The translations under genes and the position numbers were made by a program. This document shows, one piece after another, positions 8,500 through 41,641 of a DNA stretch of 64,000 bases. The stretch is from a virus, in the IMG/VR virus record IMGVR_UViG_3300028920_000056, positions 1-64,000 of that record; one strand, written 5' to 3'. The first letter of the stretch is position 1. Each line of letters starts with the position of its first letter. Below the pieces are notes generated by a model. It ran no database searches. It was not told the origin of the DNA and was given only the letters and a program-made list of their open reading frames with translations.

Positions 8500-8513
8500 A
8501 AGATAAATATATG
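8500..8513 (+). promoter_or_regulatory. Phage promoter motif overlapping a start codon
   Basis: AAGATAAATATATG contains the ATG of the gene at 8511. If initiation occurs 6-8 bases after the GATAAAT box, the mRNA would start at or inside the start codon. A second element, GCATAATTTAATATAAG, lies at 8478-8494 and could serve the same gene with a leader. Confidence 0.5.
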
Positions 8514-14503: not shown

Positions 14504-14916
14504 TGAAAAAATTAAATGAGTTTTTAAATATTCTTAGAGAATCTAAAGAAAAGGCAGGTTTTCATACCAATATAGAAGAAGACACAAAGAGTAACAACAA
14601 CTTCAGAAAAGTATTATTTACAGCAGAGCGTATTCAATTAGTTTTAATGTCACTGAAACCAAATGAAGACATTGGTCTAGAAAAACATAATGTTGACCAA
14701 TTTTTTAGAGTAGACTCAGGCAATGGTGAAGCTATCATAGATGGACACAAATATGAATTGAAAAATGGTGACGCAATAATAGTTCCCGCAAATTCAGAAC
14801 ATAATATAACAGCTGGAGATGAAGGTTTAAAGTTGTATACACTTTATGCTCCACCACATCACAAAGATGGCATAGTAAGAAAAACAAAGGAAGACGCTGA
14901 AAATAAACCAGAATGA
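14503..14916 (+). CDS. Cupin-domain protein
   Basis: Residues about 40-125 form a cupin_2 barrel. Motif 1 is G-L-E-K-H-N-V-D-Q-F-F-R-V and motif 2 is G-D-A-I-I-V-P-A-N-S-E-H-N-I. Motif 1 has one His and a Gln rather than the full HxH pattern, so metal binding may be altered. Cupins bind metals, sugars or small ligands; the substrate is unknown. The N-terminus (MKKLNEFLNIL) resembles those at 8768 and 30036. Confidence 0.75.
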   Translation: MKKLNEFLNILRESKEKAGFHTNIEEDTKSNNNFRKVLFTAERIQLVLMSLKPNEDIGLEKHNVDQFFRVDSGNGEAIIDGHKYELKNGDAIIVPANSEHNITAGDEGLKLYTLYAPPHHKDGIVRKTKEDAENKPE

Positions 14917-15386
14917 CTAAAGAGCAAATAAAGAAAAAGTTAAATTTAGATAACATTGGCAATTTCTATGAAGGCAGAGCTTGGATCCAGAAAAATGATA
15001 AAGAGGGTCATGTTGATATAAATGGCAAAGTGACAACGCCAATAATTTATGACTATACTGGCCCTTTCCAAGAAGGCAGAGCTCGAGTTAAGAAAAATGG
15101 TAAATGCGGTCATGTTGATCTAAATGGTAATGTAACAACACCAATAATTTATGATGATGTTGGCGATTTCAATGAAGGCAGAACTTGGGTTGAAAAAAAT
15201 GGTAAAGAGGGTCATGTTGATCTAAATGGTAAAGTGACAACGCCTATAGTTTATGATAGTGTTGGCAGTTTCAAAGAAGGCAGAGCAGAAACTCAATTAA
15301 ATAATTTTAGATTTTTTATAAACAAAAAAGGATATCCTACTGAACATAAAGATTTTTATAAATTGATAAAAGGTTTGTTTAAATGA
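14913..15386 (+). CDS. WG-repeat protein with C-terminal LF tag
   Basis: The 157-residue protein has three full and one partial WG-type repeats of about 33 residues (E-G-R-A-x-V-x-K-N-G-K-x-G-H-V-D-L-N-G-K-V-T-T-P-I-I-Y-D). WG repeats form beta-propeller-like or solenoid folds. The ending DFYKLIKGLFK is the shared C-terminal tag, and its codons carry the AAAAGG RBS of the next gene. It is one of five paralogues (also 15383, 21873, 22343, 55486). Function is unknown. Confidence 0.8.
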   Translation: MTKEQIKKKLNLDNIGNFYEGRAWIQKNDKEGHVDINGKVTTPIIYDYTGPFQEGRARVKKNGKCGHVDLNGNVTTPIIYDDVGDFNEGRTWVEKNGKEGHVDLNGKVTTPIVYDSVGSFKEGRAETQLNNFRFFINKKGYPTEHKDFYKLIKGLFK

Positions 15387-15844
15387 CTAAAGAACAAATA
15401 AAGAAAAAACTAAAGCTAGATGAAATTGGCTCTTTCTCTGAAGGCAGAGCTCGAGTTAAGAAAAATGGTAAATATGGCCATATTGACAAAAATGGCAAAG
15501 TGACAACGCCAATAGTTTATGGGGGTGTTGGCAATTTCTATGAAGGCAGAGCTTGGGTTAAGAAAAATGGAAAAGAGGGTCATGTTGATCTAAATGGTAA
15601 TGTGACAACACCAATAATTTATGATGATGTTGGCCCTTTCAATGAAGGCAGAGCTTGGGTCCAGAAAAATGGTAAAGAGGGTCATGTTGATCTAAATGGT
15701 AAAGTGACAACGCCTATAGTTTATGATAGTGTTGGCTATTTCCAAGAAGGCAGAGCTAGAGCTGTAATCAAAAATTTTGGATTTTATATAAACAAAAAAG
15801 GATATCCATTTGATTTTTATAAATTGATAAAGAGTATATTCTAA
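15383..15844 (+). CDS. WG-repeat protein with C-terminal tag
   Basis: This is a tandem copy of the previous gene: 153 residues with three full and one partial repeat and the same start (MTKEQIKKKL) and ending (FYKLIKSIF). At the DNA level long runs are near-identical to 14913-15386, so the pair can recombine. Stop and start overlap by 4 bases (ATGA). The end differs from the paralogues by a small deletion (no EHKD before FYKLIK). Function is unknown. Confidence 0.8.
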   Translation: MTKEQIKKKLKLDEIGSFSEGRARVKKNGKYGHIDKNGKVTTPIVYGGVGNFYEGRAWVKKNGKEGHVDLNGNVTTPIIYDDVGPFNEGRAWVQKNGKEGHVDLNGKVTTPIVYDSVGYFQEGRARAVIKNFGFYINKKGYPFDFYKLIKSIF

Positions 15845-17053: not shown

Positions 17054-17162
17054 ACGAACTTACAAAATTAATAGAAAGCTTACTAAATGATGGTGGAAAG
17101 AGACTTTTTCTTAGGGAGAAAGAAAAATAATTGATGCAATAGCATGACATGCTTAATAAATG

Positions 17163-17191
17163 CATAGTTACTTTTACAGGAGGTAACTATG
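17163..17191 (+). promoter_or_regulatory. Start-codon hairpin (translation control candidate)
   Basis: A perfect 9-bp inverted repeat, CATAGTTAC (17163-17171) and GTAACTATG (17183-17191), pairs the start codon of the ligase-like gene. Most of the AGGAGG RBS is in the 11-base loop. Folding would hide the ATG, so expression may depend on RNA melting or a binding protein. Confidence 0.55.
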
Positions 17192-18487
17192 GGTGGAGCA
17201 GCAGGACACATACAACATCCCTATGATAAATATAAAGATCCCCAAGACTTTTTAAAATTTTTTAAAAAATTCATATCAGGTGAAATCGAAGGTACTGAGA
17301 AAGTAGACGGCTACAACCTTTTTGTTGGCTTTAACAAAAAAGGTAATGTGGTTGCGGCAAGAAATAAAAACCAAATTCCAATAAAAAGTATAATAGAAAA
17401 ATTTCCTCTTACACATGGAGCTTATGCTGGTTTTAGTGCGGGTTGGAAAGCAATTAAGTCTAAACTTGAAAATCTATCAAAATCTGATAGAATAAAATAT
17501 AATTTAATTGACAACTTCTTAAATATAGAAATATTATTCAGTTACATTCCTAACGTAGTACCTTATAGCATGACTACAAATTATATTGTGTTTCATGACT
17601 ATGCTGGCAATCCTGATAATAGTTGGCAGCCTCAAAACGTTGAGAATGAAAAAGCTTTATTAAAGAAGCTAGCTAATAAATTAAATTCAGTTGCCATTAA
17701 TAGCTCTGAAATAATATTTGTTGGCAACCCGGGGAAAGTTAAACAAATTAGAAAAGACATCAAATCATACTGGGAGTTTAAAGGACCAATTGATATTACC
17801 AAAAAAGATATTAAATCCCAGTTAGTAAACATTGCAAAAGAGTGGCAAAGATATCCTGAAATTTTAAAACTGAAAAGAACAAAGGATAGTACTAAACAAC
17901 TAGAATTAATGAAAACTATAACAAAAAAAATTGGTTCAGAAGTTTTAAAAGCTATAGTCTCTAAGCTTTCTGAAACTGGCAAGAAAGTTGATGGATATCC
18001 TGGAATAGAAGGAATTGTTATAAAACAAGGTGGCGATAAAATAAAAATTACAGGATCATTTTTAAATTATAGTAATCCAGATGATGTTTTTATTTTTGAT
18101 GCAACAAGAAGCCTTAGAGAATATATACAAAAAGAAGTTTTTGGATTAACAACTATAACATTACGCAGTTTAAAAGATAAATCTTTCAAAGGCTTAAACA
18201 ATTATATAATAACTAAGAGAAAGAAAAAATATACATATGACATCAACGAACTTTTAGACGATTCTGTAAAAGATAATATATACCAGCTTATAAAAAAAGC
18301 TCAACAAGATATTAAAAATATTCTGCCAGATTTAAGAAAAAAAGCAAGAGAATATGACATACATAATATGTTATCACAGTCTTTTATATTGAGTAAATTA
18401 AAGGAAGCAGTAGAAAAATCTACTATATTAGAAGAAATTCTACATGCTTATGCAAAAATATTTTATAATATTAAGAAGAGGAGTTAA
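17189..18487 (+). CDS. Ligase/nucleotidyltransferase-superfamily protein
   Basis: The 432-residue product has E-K-V-D-G-Y-N at residues 37-43, matching motif I (K-x-D-G) of the covalent nucleotidyltransferases (DNA/RNA ligases, capping enzymes). The later E-G-I-V-I-K (about 273) and K-I-K-I-T-G match motifs IV and V. The first residues (MGGAAGHIQHPYD) and a long C-terminal helical part are not typical of known ligases. It may be an RNA ligase or another AMP/GMP-transferring enzyme. Start is fixed by AGGAGG 5 bases upstream. Its start codon is in the hairpin described at 17163. Confidence 0.65.
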   Translation: MGGAAGHIQHPYDKYKDPQDFLKFFKKFISGEIEGTEKVDGYNLFVGFNKKGNVVAARNKNQIPIKSIIEKFPLTHGAYAGFSAGWKAIKSKLENLSKSDRIKYNLIDNFLNIEILFSYIPNVVPYSMTTNYIVFHDYAGNPDNSWQPQNVENEKALLKKLANKLNSVAINSSEIIFVGNPGKVKQIRKDIKSYWEFKGPIDITKKDIKSQLVNIAKEWQRYPEILKLKRTKDSTKQLELMKTITKKIGSEVLKAIVSKLSETGKKVDGYPGIEGIVIKQGGDKIKITGSFLNYSNPDDVFIFDATRSLREYIQKEVFGLTTITLRSLKDKSFKGLNNYIITKRKKKYTYDINELLDDSVKDNIYQLIKKAQQDIKNILPDLRKKAREYDIHNMLSQSFILSKLKEAVEKSTILEEILHAYAKIFYNIKKRS

Positions 18488-31284: not shown

Positions 31285-31479
31285 ATGAAAAAAGAATACA
31301 GCGCACATGAAAAGAAGATATTGAATCGTGTAAAAGACAAGATAAAGTTATCAGGCTCGCAGTGGCGTGCTTTATTAGAAGACATGAAAAATGGTGAAAT
31401 TAAACGCGTTATATGTTTTAAATATAACATTCCACTAAAATATTATAAGTGGGTAAAAAGAATAGTTGGAGAAATGTAA
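31285..31479 (+). CDS. Small basic HTH-like protein
   Basis: The 64-residue product (MKKEYSAHEKKILNRVKDK … FKYNIPLKYYKWVKRIVGEM) is basic and has three helices with HTH-like spacing (WRALLEDMKNGEIKRVICFKYNIP). RBS GGGAG lies 7 bases upstream. It may be a DNA-binding regulator; similarity is not strong enough to name a family. Confidence 0.55.
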   Translation: MKKEYSAHEKKILNRVKDKIKLSGSQWRALLEDMKNGEIKRVICFKYNIPLKYYKWVKRIVGEM

Positions 31480-35873: not shown

Positions 35874-36218
35874 ATGCATTTAAATCACAAAGAAAAAGTC
35901 GCTTATAGACATACTAAAGTATGGAAAGAAAAGCGACTAGCTGTGTTGAAGCGAGATGGTAACATTTGCCAATTATGTAATAGGAAATTAAGTTCAAAAA
36001 AATTACATGTCCACCATATAGATGAGGATAAATACAAAGACATTGATGAGATTGAATATTTAGTAACTTTATGTAAAGCTTGTCATCGTCAATTTATCGA
36101 AAGATGGATAGTAAAATTAAGAAGTAAATCATATAAACCAAATAAATATACTTTGCTTATTGAGCAAATAGTTAAAGAGTTTACGGTTGAATTAGATAGA
36201 GAGAAAACAAATGGCTAG
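35874..36218 (+). CDS. HNH endonuclease between terminase and portal
   Basis: The 114-residue product carries C-Q-L-C-N-R (about 35), L-H-V-H-H-I-D (about 46-52) and L-C-K-A-C-H-R-Q-F (about 67), the full zinc-type HNH motif with the order C..C, HH, C..C-H. Phages with HNH genes next to the terminase often need them for packaging, but position next to an intein-bearing portal also fits a homing endonuclease. It overlaps the portal start by 8 bases. Confidence 0.8.
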   Translation: MHLNHKEKVAYRHTKVWKEKRLAVLKRDGNICQLCNRKLSSKKLHVHHIDEDKYKDIDEIEYLVTLCKACHRQFIERWIVKLRSKSYKPNKYTLLIEQIVKEFTVELDREKTNG

Positions 36219-39200
36219 AAGAAAAAATTCAGTAAACATTTCGCAAAGAGCTGCTGTCATACAAAGTTTTTTTAATAAAATCAATGTAACAAAAATACAA
36301 GATTTAGTAAGTGGACAACAGAATGTTGGAACTGAAAATACTTTTAGTATGCAGCGTAGTTCTTTTGAGAGCATTACTTCTATAGATCAAAGTAGAGTAC
36401 AAAGATATCGTGAATATGAACAGATGTGTTATGTTCCAGAACTTAATGGTGGTTTAGAAATATATGCCGATGATGCTTCATTATATAATACAAATGATGA
36501 AGTAATTGAGTCTCTTTCCGACAATAATGAGATAGCTGATAATTTGAGCGACTTATGGTTTAAAGCGTTAGATATGAATGCTAATCTTTGGCACATTATT
36601 TATAACACTTGTAAATATGGTGACGCTTTTTATGAAGTAATACCTGATGATTATACAAACCCTAAACGATTAAAATACATGAGATATATACCTCCCCAAT
36701 ATGTTACTAGAGAAGAGAAAGATGGTAATTTAATACAATTTATTGTAAGAATTCCTGCTGAAGACACAAGAAGTAGTAATTATTCATATTATGCAAATGA
36801 CCAAAATAGTGAAGAAGTTTTTTTAAAACCATGGCAAATTGTTCATTTTAAATTAGATGACAAAGAATTTGAACCATATGGAAAATCTGTTTTAGAAACA
36901 GGTAGATTAGCATTTAAACAAATGAAATTAGTTGAAGATGCTATGTTAATCTACAGAATAACTAGAGCCCCTGAGAGAAGAATATTCACTATACCAGTTG
37001 GTAACCTTCCATTTAGAGAAGCAATGAGAAAAGTAGAAGATTTTAAACAAAGATATAGAAAAACTCCATGGATTGATCCATTAACAGGTGAAATCAATTA
37101 TAAAGCAAATCCTATGTGTTTAACTATGGACACTAAGATTGATTTATTAGATGGCAGGACTTTAGAACTACAAGAAATCATAAAGGAATTCGAAGAAGGC
37201 AAGGAGCTTTGGACTTATTCAATAGATCGCGAAAATGACAATCAAATAGTTCCAGGAAAAATCGAGTGGGCAGGACCAACTCGAAAAAATGCCGAGCTAG
37301 TAGAAGTATTTATAGACAACGAAAAATCTATACGATGTACACCAGATCATAAATTCTTGTTAAGAAATGGTGAATATAAAGAGGCCCAGTACCTAAAAGC
37401 AGGTGATTCTTTGATGCCTAAGTACACAAAAGAATCTTCTAAGGGTTATGAAATGGTGTATAATCCTAAAACTAGGAAATATATTCCAACTTATATGGTA
37501 GTTGCTAGACACACTCAAGAGAAAAAGTGGAACAGAAGATGGACCAAAAGAACAATACATCACAAAGATTTTAATAAAATAAATAATAATCCAGACAATC
37601 TTTTGATATTAGAAAATAAAGATCATGTAGGATTACATGGAGAATTAAGTAAAAGAAATTGGTCTAATCCAAAATATAGAAAAAAGCAATATGAGTCTAG
37701 GGTAAAAGCTTGGAGAAATAGTTCAGACGAGAGAAGAAAGCTACAATCAGAATTAATAACTAAATATAATAAAAGCGAAAAGCATAAAAGAGTTACTATA
37801 AGTAGAAATAAAAGAATTTGGTCAGACGAGAAAACAAAAGAAAAAATATCTGCTAATATGAGAAAACCAAAATCTACTACTGAAAACATGAAGATTAAAT
37901 TCGGTGAAAAATTTTGGTCTTTTATTGATAACGCTATTATAAAATTACAAGAACAAAACAAAGTAGTTGAATATCTAAACTCAAACAAAGAATTTATATT
38001 TCATTTCAAAACTTTAACGCCAAGAAACAACGAGTCTATTCACAGACACTTGTTAACTAAAGCTTTTAGACAAAAAGGTTATGACGGTTTTGAAGATTAT
38101 AAGTATACCTTAATTGACGATAATAGATTGTCATATGAAGATATTAAAGACGATCATGAAAATGGTTTGAGTCAAAAAAAGATTGCTAATAAATTTGATG
38201 TTTCAAGATCGGTTATCAAAAAGTTGCTCAGAAGAAATCATAAAGTTGTAAAAGTTGTTCGCTTAAATGAACGAGAAGATACAGGCTGTATTACTGTTGC
38301 AAAATACCACAACTTTGCAATATCAGATATCATCGTGAGAAATTCTATCAACGATGATTTCTTTTTTCCTAGAAGACCAGATGGTAGTGGTCCAGCAGTT
38401 GAAACTTTACCAGGTGGTATGCAATTAAGTGAAATAGATGATGCAAGATTTTTTAAAGAAAAAATTCTTAGAACTATGAGAATTCCGCTTGCTTATTTAA
38501 CTGGAGAAATGACAGGTGATGTCGCAAAGACTTCATTATCTGCTATGGATACTAATTTTGCTAAAACTATAGAAAGAATTCAAAAGCAGATTATAAAAAG
38601 TTTAGAAAAAATAGCGATAATTGAATTAGCATTTAAACGTTTTACAATAGAAGATTTACATGATTTTAGATTAAATCTAACAGTTCCATCAAAGATTTAT
38701 GAAATGCAAGAGTTAGAGACGTTTAATGCAAAATTGAGTGCTATTCAATCAGCAATAGCACTAGCCGACGTAGAAACAAATAAACCATTTTTACCAAGAG
38801 AATGGTTATATAAAAATATAATGAAATTTAATGAAGAAGAAATATCAACTATTAAGCTTATGCAACAAGCTGAAATGGCAGAAAAAGAGGAAGATAAAGC
38901 AAGAGCAGAAGCTACTGCCGGAGGCGAAATGGGTGGAGGTATGATGCCAGGAGGAGGTATGCCACTAGGTGGTGGTATGCCACTAGGTGGTGAACTTGGA
39001 GCTGGTGAAATGGGAGCTGGCGAAATGGGAGCCGGTGAAATGGGAGCTCTAGAGGTTGCGCCAGGCGGCCCGGCTGCTGCTGGTGGTGAAGCTGGATTAG
39101 AAATAGCAAGTAAAATAATTAAAATAGCCGGAAGAGAATTTTTAGTTGAAAATGAGAATGATATTAGAGAAATAATAAAATTTGTTAAAGAATTCAAAGA

Positions 39201-39345
39201 AAACCAAAAGAACGCTAAAGATAACTTTAGAAAGAGGTCTAAGAAAAAGTTGTATGAAAATAAGTTTGATTTACTTTTCATCCAAGGTGAATTTAAAGGC
39301 CTCATAAGACGTGTGAAAAAGAACAAAAATATGCTGAAAGATTAA
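36211..39345 (+). CDS. Portal vertex protein with intein
   Basis: The 1044-residue precursor is a T4 gp20-like portal with an intein at residues 303-711. The exteins (302 plus 333) match the portal: the N-part has D-D-A-S-L-Y-N, Y-G-D-A-F-Y-E-V and R-I-T-R-A-P-E-R-R-I-F; the C-part resumes with S-I-N-D-D-F-F-F-P-R-R-P-D-G-S-G. The mature length is 635, longer than T4 gp20, mostly owing to a Gly/Met/Ala-rich tail (about 905-960). The portal is the DNA gate in the capsid vertex. The insertion point, just before the conserved F-P-R-R-P-D region, is typical of homing into conserved sites. Confidence 0.9.
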   Translation: MARRKNSVNISQRAAVIQSFFNKINVTKIQDLVSGQQNVGTENTFSMQRSSFESITSIDQSRVQRYREYEQMCYVPELNGGLEIYADDASLYNTNDEVIESLSDNNEIADNLSDLWFKALDMNANLWHIIYNTCKYGDAFYEVIPDDYTNPKRLKYMRYIPPQYVTREEKDGNLIQFIVRIPAEDTRSSNYSYYANDQNSEEVFLKPWQIVHFKLDDKEFEPYGKSVLETGRLAFKQMKLVEDAMLIYRITRAPERRIFTIPVGNLPFREAMRKVEDFKQRYRKTPWIDPLTGEINYKANPMCLTMDTKIDLLDGRTLELQEIIKEFEEGKELWTYSIDRENDNQIVPGKIEWAGPTRKNAELVEVFIDNEKSIRCTPDHKFLLRNGEYKEAQYLKAGDSLMPKYTKESSKGYEMVYNPKTRKYIPTYMVVARHTQEKKWNRRWTKRTIHHKDFNKINNNPDNLLILENKDHVGLHGELSKRNWSNPKYRKKQYESRVKAWRNSSDERRKLQSELITKYNKSEKHKRVTISRNKRIWSDEKTKEKISANMRKPKSTTENMKIKFGEKFWSFIDNAIIKLQEQNKVVEYLNSNKEFIFHFKTLTPRNNESIHRHLLTKAFRQKGYDGFEDYKYTLIDDNRLSYEDIKDDHENGLSQKKIANKFDVSRSVIKKLLRRNHKVVKVVRLNEREDTGCITVAKYHNFAISDIIVRNSINDDFFFPRRPDGSGPAVETLPGGMQLSEIDDARFFKEKILRTMRIPLAYLTGEMTGDVAKTSLSAMDTNFAKTIERIQKQIIKSLEKIAIIELAFKRFTIEDLHDFRLNLTVPSKIYEMQELETFNAKLSAIQSAIALADVETNKPFLPREWLYKNIMKFNEEEISTIKLMQQAEMAEKEEDKARAEATAGGEMGGGMMPGGGMPLGGGMPLGGELGAGEMGAGEMGAGEMGALEVAPGGPAAAGGEAGLEIASKIIKIAGREFLVENENDIREIIKFVKEFKENQKNAKDNFRKRSKKKLYENKFDLLFIQGEFKGLIRRVKKNKNMLKD
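37117..38343 (+). mobile_element. Intein with HNH homing endonuclease domain
   Basis: The 409-residue intein begins with Cys (C-L-T-M-D-T-K-I-D-L-L-D-G) and ends H-N-F-A-I-S-D-I-I-V-R-N before Ser +1. Block B is T-P-D-H-K-F-L-L. The inner part holds an HNH core (I-H-H-K-D-F-N-K-I-N-N-N-P-D-N-L), a NUMOD3-like region and an HTH (LSQKKIANKFDVSRSVIKKLL). All splicing residues seem present, so it is probably active. The penultimate residue before the last Asn is Arg rather than the usual His, which some inteins tolerate. Confidence 0.88.
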
Positions 39346-41008: not shown

Positions 41009-41641
41009 ATGGAAAAACAATTACCTTTATTACAAGAATATCAAGATTTTAATTATGAAGTACTCATTGAAGATGTTGGCAATAATATTAAGAAGACTTA
41101 TCTTAAAGGTTTATTCCAACATGCTGGAGTTAAAAATGGTAATGGTAGAAGATATCCTTTTCGTATTTTAGAAAGAGAAGTTAATTCTAATCAAGACAAA
41201 ATTAAAAATCGACAAATGGTTGGGGAGTTGGATCACCCTGAAGATGGAAAGATTCATTTAGATAGAGTTTCACATGCTATTCTAGAAGCTCAAATGGATT
41301 CAGATGGAAGAGTTTTTGGAAAAGCAGAAGTTTTTAATGGACAAGATGAATTAGGTGGCACACCACAAGGTAGGATTCTTGGTTCATTAATTAAGCGAAA
41401 AATTAAACTTGGTGTTTCATCAAGAGGCTTCGGTACTACCAGAAGAATTGAAGATGGAACAAATGAAGTTAATGAAGATTTTAAATTAATTACTTGGGAT
41501 ATGGTAGCAGATCCTTCTACACCTAAAGCTTATCCCGAAGCTGTGTATGAAGATAAAACATATACCGAAGATTCTTGGTATAAAGAAGAAGAAGACACAA
41601 TGTCTTTTTCTGATGTATTAAGTGAGAGTTTGGAAAATTAG
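41009..41641 (+). CDS. Prohead maturation protease (T4 gp21-like)
   Basis: The 210-residue product contains G-E-L-D-H-P-E-D (His76) and L-G-V-S-S-R-G-F-G (Ser137/138), the His and Ser of the herpesvirus-type assembly protease fold, plus N-G-R-R-Y-P near the start. It cleaves scaffold and capsid proteins during head maturation. The order protease-scaffold-capsid is that of T4 genes 21-22-23. RBS in the preceding gene (AAAGAG). Confidence 0.9.
   Translation: MEKQLPLLQEYQDFNYEVLIEDVGNNIKKTYLKGLFQHAGVKNGNGRRYPFRILEREVNSNQDKIKNRQMVGELDHPEDGKIHLDRVSHAILEAQMDSDGRVFGKAEVFNGQDELGGTPQGRILGSLIKRKIKLGVSSRGFGTTRRIEDGTNEVNEDFKLITWDMVADPSTPKAYPEAVYEDKTYTEDSWYKEEEDTMSFSDVLSESLEN

Follow-up and report, generated by a model that had tools for sequence, protein, structure and literature searches.

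A start-site hairpin that may dampen translation of a ligase-like gene in a T4-like phage

We describe a perfect inverted repeat that reaches into the start codon of an RNA-ligase-like gene in a T4-like tailed phage and that is predicted to fold over both the Shine-Dalgarno (SD) sequence and the AUG. We consider it moderately probable that the repeat is a lineage-specific, cis-acting hairpin that intrinsically dampens translation and involves no conserved operator. If the hairpin works, an RNA-ligase-like gene joins the short list of phage genes restrained by a start-site hairpin.

The window analysed here comprises positions 1 to 64,000 of a virus record of 89,628 bases and has 30% G+C. The phage is one of a group of T4-like phages about which little is known: a terminase, a portal protein, a T4-type capsid protein and a head protease are present, and the plus strand carries 140 of the 146 called genes. 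Two side observations concern other genes of the window. In the portal protein (36211-39345, 1044 aa), residues 404-586 or thereabouts form an insert that resembles an HNH endonuclease and is likely an intein. At 14913-15844 there are two adjacent similar genes, the first consisting of WG repeats (Pfam WG_beta_rep) and the second alike by eye.

The hairpin and its predicted fold

Table 1. Features of the ligase-like gene and its leader (positions in the window)
Feature	Position	Strand	Basis or remark
Untranslated leader, 135 nt, from the upstream ORF to the ligase-like gene	17054-17188	+	
Best leader match to the group's promoter-like motif (gAAAGATAAATATA)	17118-17132	+	6.25 bits
AATAAATG, directly 5' of the hairpin, unsupported as a T4-like late promoter	17155-17162	+	
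8-codon frame through the hairpin (MHSYFYRR, then stop), stop 2 nt before the ATG	17160-17186	+	without SD
5' arm of the perfect 9-bp repeat, CATAGTTAC	17163-17171	+	exact match of arm sequences
11-base loop (spacer) in the 9-bp model	17172-17182	+	in the minimum-energy fold, UUUU (17172-17175) pairs with GGAG (17179-17182)
SD, AGGAGG, mostly paired	17178-17183	+	sequence and predicted fold
3' arm, GTAACTATG, last bases being the start codon (17189-17191)	17183-17191	+	
Gene that starts in the hairpin; RNA-ligase-like product of 432 aa with KVDG at residues 38-41	17189-18487	+	

The first-pass annotation of this DNA had described a perfect 9-bp hairpin that hides the start codon of a ligase-like gene, and the arms, the loop and the coordinates proved exact, the 3' arm having the ORF's ATG as its last three bases (Table 1). 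AGGAGG precedes this ATG at normal spacing, and AGGAGGT and GAGGTAA are over-represented in the non-coding sequence of the record. A strong SD at normal spacing indicates that the start of the ligase-like gene is genuine.

The minimum-energy fold adds four U-G/U-A pairs, which brings the total to 13 pairs and leaves a 3-base loop (17176-17178). The folding energy of the 29-mer is -11.8 kcal/mol (z -5.35). All pairs of the stem have a probability of 0.99-1.0 when 121 to 780 nt of context are folded; across four such contexts the unpaired probability of the AUG is 0, and those of the six bases of AGGAGG are 1.00, 0.48, 0.04, 0.01, 0 and 0. The fold prediction thus supports the claim that the start codon is hidden, with the AUG closed in every context folded. 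The accompanying claim that the loop displays the ribosome-binding site (RBS) is true of the 9-bp model only, because the four additional pairs of the minimum-energy fold bury most of the SD. Among the 139 starts tested in the record, that of the ligase-like gene is the most structured and the least accessible at SD and AUG. Its folding energy over -40..+20 is -18.9 kcal/mol, the lowest of all (mean -4.7, sd 3.0), and the runner-up reaches -13.1 kcal/mol across an equal 60 nt. By prediction, then, the site has the pairing of a T4-type RBS-sequestering hairpin, in which the SD and/or the AUG is paired in a stable local helix.

As evidence against chance, stem length alone is weak and stability is better. 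Perfect hairpins with a stem of 9 bp or more and a loop of 3-20 bases number 24 in the window, compared with 9.3 (sd 3.1) in 20 shuffles. One such hairpin has a full start codon inside an arm, where 0.185 are expected over the 140 called starts, and at least one start-covering stem of such length appeared in 15% of 200 shuffled sets; starts and genes were counted with a simple ORF/SD caller written for this analysis. With the SD and start codon held fixed, 13,900 shuffles matched this stability in 0.029% of cases over 60 nt and in 0.014% over -29..+3, which corresponds to 0.04 and 0.02 expected per record. The repeat had been called unlikely by chance; this is true, but only in modest degree, since the two kinds of expectation, by length and by stability, make the hairpin more than chance only moderately.

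No second two-armed copy of the hairpin was found with up to 3 mismatches allowed, and in the sets searched the stem did not recur at any related gene. The exact two-armed pattern had a single match in viral contigs, which we rejected as a relative: it is intergenic in a different, unrelated phage (L165) that looks like a microvirus by its ORFs.

The stem in relatives, the leader and the alternatives

The grounds for calling the product ligase-like are fair, and its enzymatic activity is putative. The Pfam RNA_ligase match is weak (E 0.032, short of the family cut-off). Across 29 aligned proteins, K38, D40 and G41 of the KxDG nucleotidyl motif that marks ATP-dependent RNA ligases and nucleotidyltransferases are invariant, as are further E and K residues. 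A structure model of medium confidence (pLDDT 67.9) was compared with known structures by Foldseek, in which the top 13 of 140 matches were RNA/tRNA ligases, the best being the tRNA ligase 9qw7 (E 6.4e-3), with every E above 0.001. In VIA-align the ligases scored Z about 5-6.3, a level also reached by unrelated helical structures that matched a different part of the model. The earlier label of the gene is thus backed by KxDG and the other invariant motifs, the sub-cut-off Pfam match and the Foldseek ranking.

We then asked how far the stem is shared. With the ligase-like protein as query, no relative was found in viral contigs and none in plasmids, and one phage record matched (34% over a third). 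The DNA of the hairpin neighbourhood gave no matches, nor did the terminase in viral contigs. The major capsid protein led to 17 related records, several of them fragments, and the ligase gene is present in one of these, L186 (55% identical). Two further scans returned the L186 record and remote matches only, and genome contigs returned one remote relative. The conservation test therefore rests on one close ortholog. At greater distance, a family alignment search gave at least 80 loci at 25-36% identity, and another 80 family loci were reached via a Microcystis phage protein. As a separate observation, the capsid gene of the relative L181 is broken at ~1247-1500: an in-frame stop is found there, with some 270 additional bases that look like a group I intron.

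The protein of the L186 ortholog begins 14 codons further upstream, ahead of E-G-G, and its start is unstructured and open (-0.2 kcal/mol around the start). Before the GG it reads GTTACC GAG, compared with GTAACT ATG in the window; the hairpin is absent from L186 because such sequence is present there in one copy only. Among the matches listed, 24 distant family members have Met at this site and none of them carries the hairpin (0/24), the most stable reaching -13.0. The mean of the start region is -6.2 in the 25 Met members (window included) versus -6.3 in 91 Glu members. The first-pass annotation had named loss of the stem from relatives that keep the gene as the observation that would speak against its proposal, and this is what the available, thin material shows: the stem is missing from the only close ortholog (1/1) as well as from the distant Met relatives (24/24). 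On this material the hairpin is not a conserved translational operator. The leader beside the hairpin has a weak resemblance to the L186 coding leader (P 0.03 at the nucleotide level and 0.28 at the peptide level). We also considered the 3' arm as a 16-nt insertion that severs an ortholog-like leader, which is suggestive by eye and statistically weak, and did not adopt it.

Within the leader, the best match to the group's promoter-like motif ranks 92 of 89,586 plus-strand positions, and a transcript from this site would include the entire hairpin. The motif was obtained by 7-mer enrichment and inspection of the sequence after the capsid genes of relatives, where it recurs, as it does in the non-coding sequence of the record; its role as a promoter is putative. 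Its weight matrix was built from sites picked by their AAGATAA core, so that the model is not unbiased. EM motif discovery over intergenic sequence returned the SD first and then nothing clear. Scoring the leader with the group's motif revealed no promoter inside the 5' arm. Elsewhere, a further motif, AAAGATAAATATATG, occurs in the window at 8500, 48587, 54336 and 55239, and in L168 (2739), L169 (2754) and L174 (2716). Several copies lie soon after a terminator-like hairpin, and an open frame without SD starts at the motif's ATG; it is a putative leaderless-message promoter or unusual start signal.

These data bear on several other readings of the repeat. It could be a by-product of chance or mutation, such as a short template-switch copy, that has no selected role, in which case translation may be dampened with nothing being regulated. 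We regard this as possible, though short of probable. Perfect 9-bp hairpins are common in the window, start-covering ones are expected by length at the frequency given above, the L186 ortholog has no stem, and the adjoining leader is only weakly like that of L186. However, the expectation based on stability is low (0.02-0.04), and selection should act against such folding of a strong SD if the protein is needed in quantity. An improbable reading is a timing switch of the T4 gene e type, where early read-through RNA is silent and late RNA that starts inside the 5' arm is translated. The anatomy is as in T4 e, soc, 49 and I-TevI. The T4 late promoter box is TATAAATA, from which AATAAATG differs at 2 of 8 positions, and the RNA would start near 17168. 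Yet AATAAATG mismatches the group's promoter-like motif (best register, -3.4 bits) and shows no enrichment outside coding sequence (2 of 14 copies non-coding, P 0.36). Moreover, in an RNA that begins at 17168, UUACUUUU and GGAGGUAA would remain paired and close the SD, the last four bases of which are predicted to be unpaired at 0.05 or less.

The kinship to the translational operators of RegA, gp32 and gp43 that was first proposed did not hold up: a protein-bound operator of this type is favoured by its location over the start codon only, and we think it very unlikely. As described in PMC3014915, RegA sites are A+U-rich (A-rich) and lack structure, the hairpin of gp43 is found ~40 nt ahead of its start codon and that of gp32 is replaced by a pseudoknot in the leader, whereas here the site is the most structured start and the stem contains the AUG. 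A RegA family search of the record and 6 related records gave no match, and the controls gave no match either, so that this search weighs neither way. The arms are centred 20 bp apart, a spacing of two helical turns that would suit a dimeric repressor binding the repeat as a DNA operator, and the window has four copies of the half-site GTAACTATG (1953, 17163, 17183 and 31476) versus 0.43 expected. But two of these four are the arms of the hairpin, a third falls within a gene and the fourth is at another possible start codon (the copy at 31476 contains a possible start ATG); together with the absence of a second two-armed copy within 3 mismatches, this makes such an operator very unlikely. In the fourU class of RNA thermometers, UUUU is paired with the SD. 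The four U of the loop pair with the SD region in the same way, and one hairpin holds both SD and AUG, but the hairpin is predicted to stay shut up to 70 C (AUG unpaired probability at most 0.07) and not to open in the physiological temperature range. The window had no Rfam match at gathering score, and the Rfam matches over 17054-17300 were two chance-level minus-strand sRNA only. We therefore hold a thermometer to be extremely unlikely.

A constitutive damper is what remains once a promoter in the 5' arm, temperature and ribosome routes have been examined. On this explanation, any transcript running through the leader would fold the hairpin, the SD and AUG of the ligase-like gene would be paired away, ribosomes would load poorly and the enzyme would be made at a low level; we infer both the formation of the hairpin in the cell and the lowered translation. 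Candidate openers would be cleavage or shortening of the 5' arm, or a ribosome on the 8-codon frame, which, judging from its sequence, could couple its translation to that of the ligase-like gene. The stem, its pair probabilities, the energy rank, the low chance expectation by stability, the genuine start and its position at the family's Gly-Gly junction (below) support the damper. Against it stand the absence of the hairpin from L186 and the 24 distant Met relatives, the 15% chance by length alone and the releasing promoter that was not found.

The Gly-Gly junction of the ligase family

The start codon falls exactly where family members read E/GG or M/GG (the slash marks the junction). Among the matches listed, the ligase family has 115 distinct contexts, in which the invariant GG is preceded by Glu (91), Met (22, window included) or Cys (2); example loci are L002:3998, L084:1534, L186:1498 and window 17189. 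Leu or Ile stands two residues before the Glu in 90 of the 91 Glu contexts, and in 75 of 76 when contexts with 12 upstream residues are taken, and the residue between varies. Since the contexts were selected by a GG..GH pattern and are kin by descent, neither these counts nor the SD and codon counts below are independent.

T4-type and giant-phage head proteases cleave after Glu, and T4 gp21 cuts Alt at ITE and LTE, according to PMC5694885. The [LI]-x-E/GG junction of the family matches the T4-type head-protease cleavage signature [LI]-x-E/G, which suggests that the ligase domain may be cut free, perhaps in the head. A head protease is encoded in the window at 41009-41641.

Of the 22 Met members (window included), 19 have an upstream SD of 4 or more bases, versus 21 of 89 Glu members. 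All Lys-Glu pairs in the Met group (8/8) are written AAG GAG, and in the codon usage of the same genes AAG has a share of 0.15-0.40 and GAG of 0.14-0.39. Fused Met relatives (L038:504, L080:3142, L137:2001, L148:311, L161:849, L193:3001, L194:514 and L195:1490) have an in-frame SD (AAG GAG TTA TTA ... ATG) ahead of the ligase domain, which looks like internal translation initiation. The sequences thus suggest two routes to a Gly-Gly end, cleavage or an internal start.

The junction and the internal ATG/GG starts suggest that the ligases of this widespread family require Gly-Gly as a free end and that the phage head may often carry them; this by-product of the analysis may matter more than the hairpin. 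We found no report in the literature of this ligase as a virion protein, which is not proof of absence. In relatives the domain follows a leader or a fused domain with [LI]-x-E/GG at its end. It is conceivable, though unlikely, that the ligase of the present phage left the virion pathway, that the ATG/GG start replaces cleavage, with the hairpin holding this new start almost silent, and that the hairpin is the switch from a packaged, injected enzyme to a dosed cytoplasmic one.

Comparison with known start-site structures

T4 gene 60, as far as its bypass is described in PMC3014915, also has a hairpin between two similar short sequences and an SD-like element before the resume point. We rejected a bypass of this type: no stop follows a take-off codon here, a credible start further upstream is lacking, and the gene has a normal SD-ATG.

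Protein operators (RegA, gp32, gp43) and intrinsic inhibitory structures (e, soc, 49, I-TevI) are treated as distinct in PMC3014915. If the hairpin works at all, the e, soc, 49 and I-TevI group would, by analogy, be the right comparison: as described for these genes, the SD and/or AUG of a T4-type phage gene is locked in a leader helix. In T4 e and I-TevI, according to the same source, a late promoter removes the 5' strand from the transcript. Unlike in these cases, no promoter that removes the 5' strand was found here, and RNA from 17168 is predicted still to fold over the SD. A further likeness is to mobE of Aeromonas phage Aeh1 and T4 segB, for which PMC2988022 describes RBS-sequestering hairpins, in all cases ahead of a gene for a nucleic-acid enzyme; mobE and segB encode homing endonucleases, whereas the gene here is ligase-like. 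With T4 e, soc, 49 and I-TevI and Aeh1 mobE as precedents by analogy, the hairpin is probably a working damper of a type already known, though one that the available relatives do not share.
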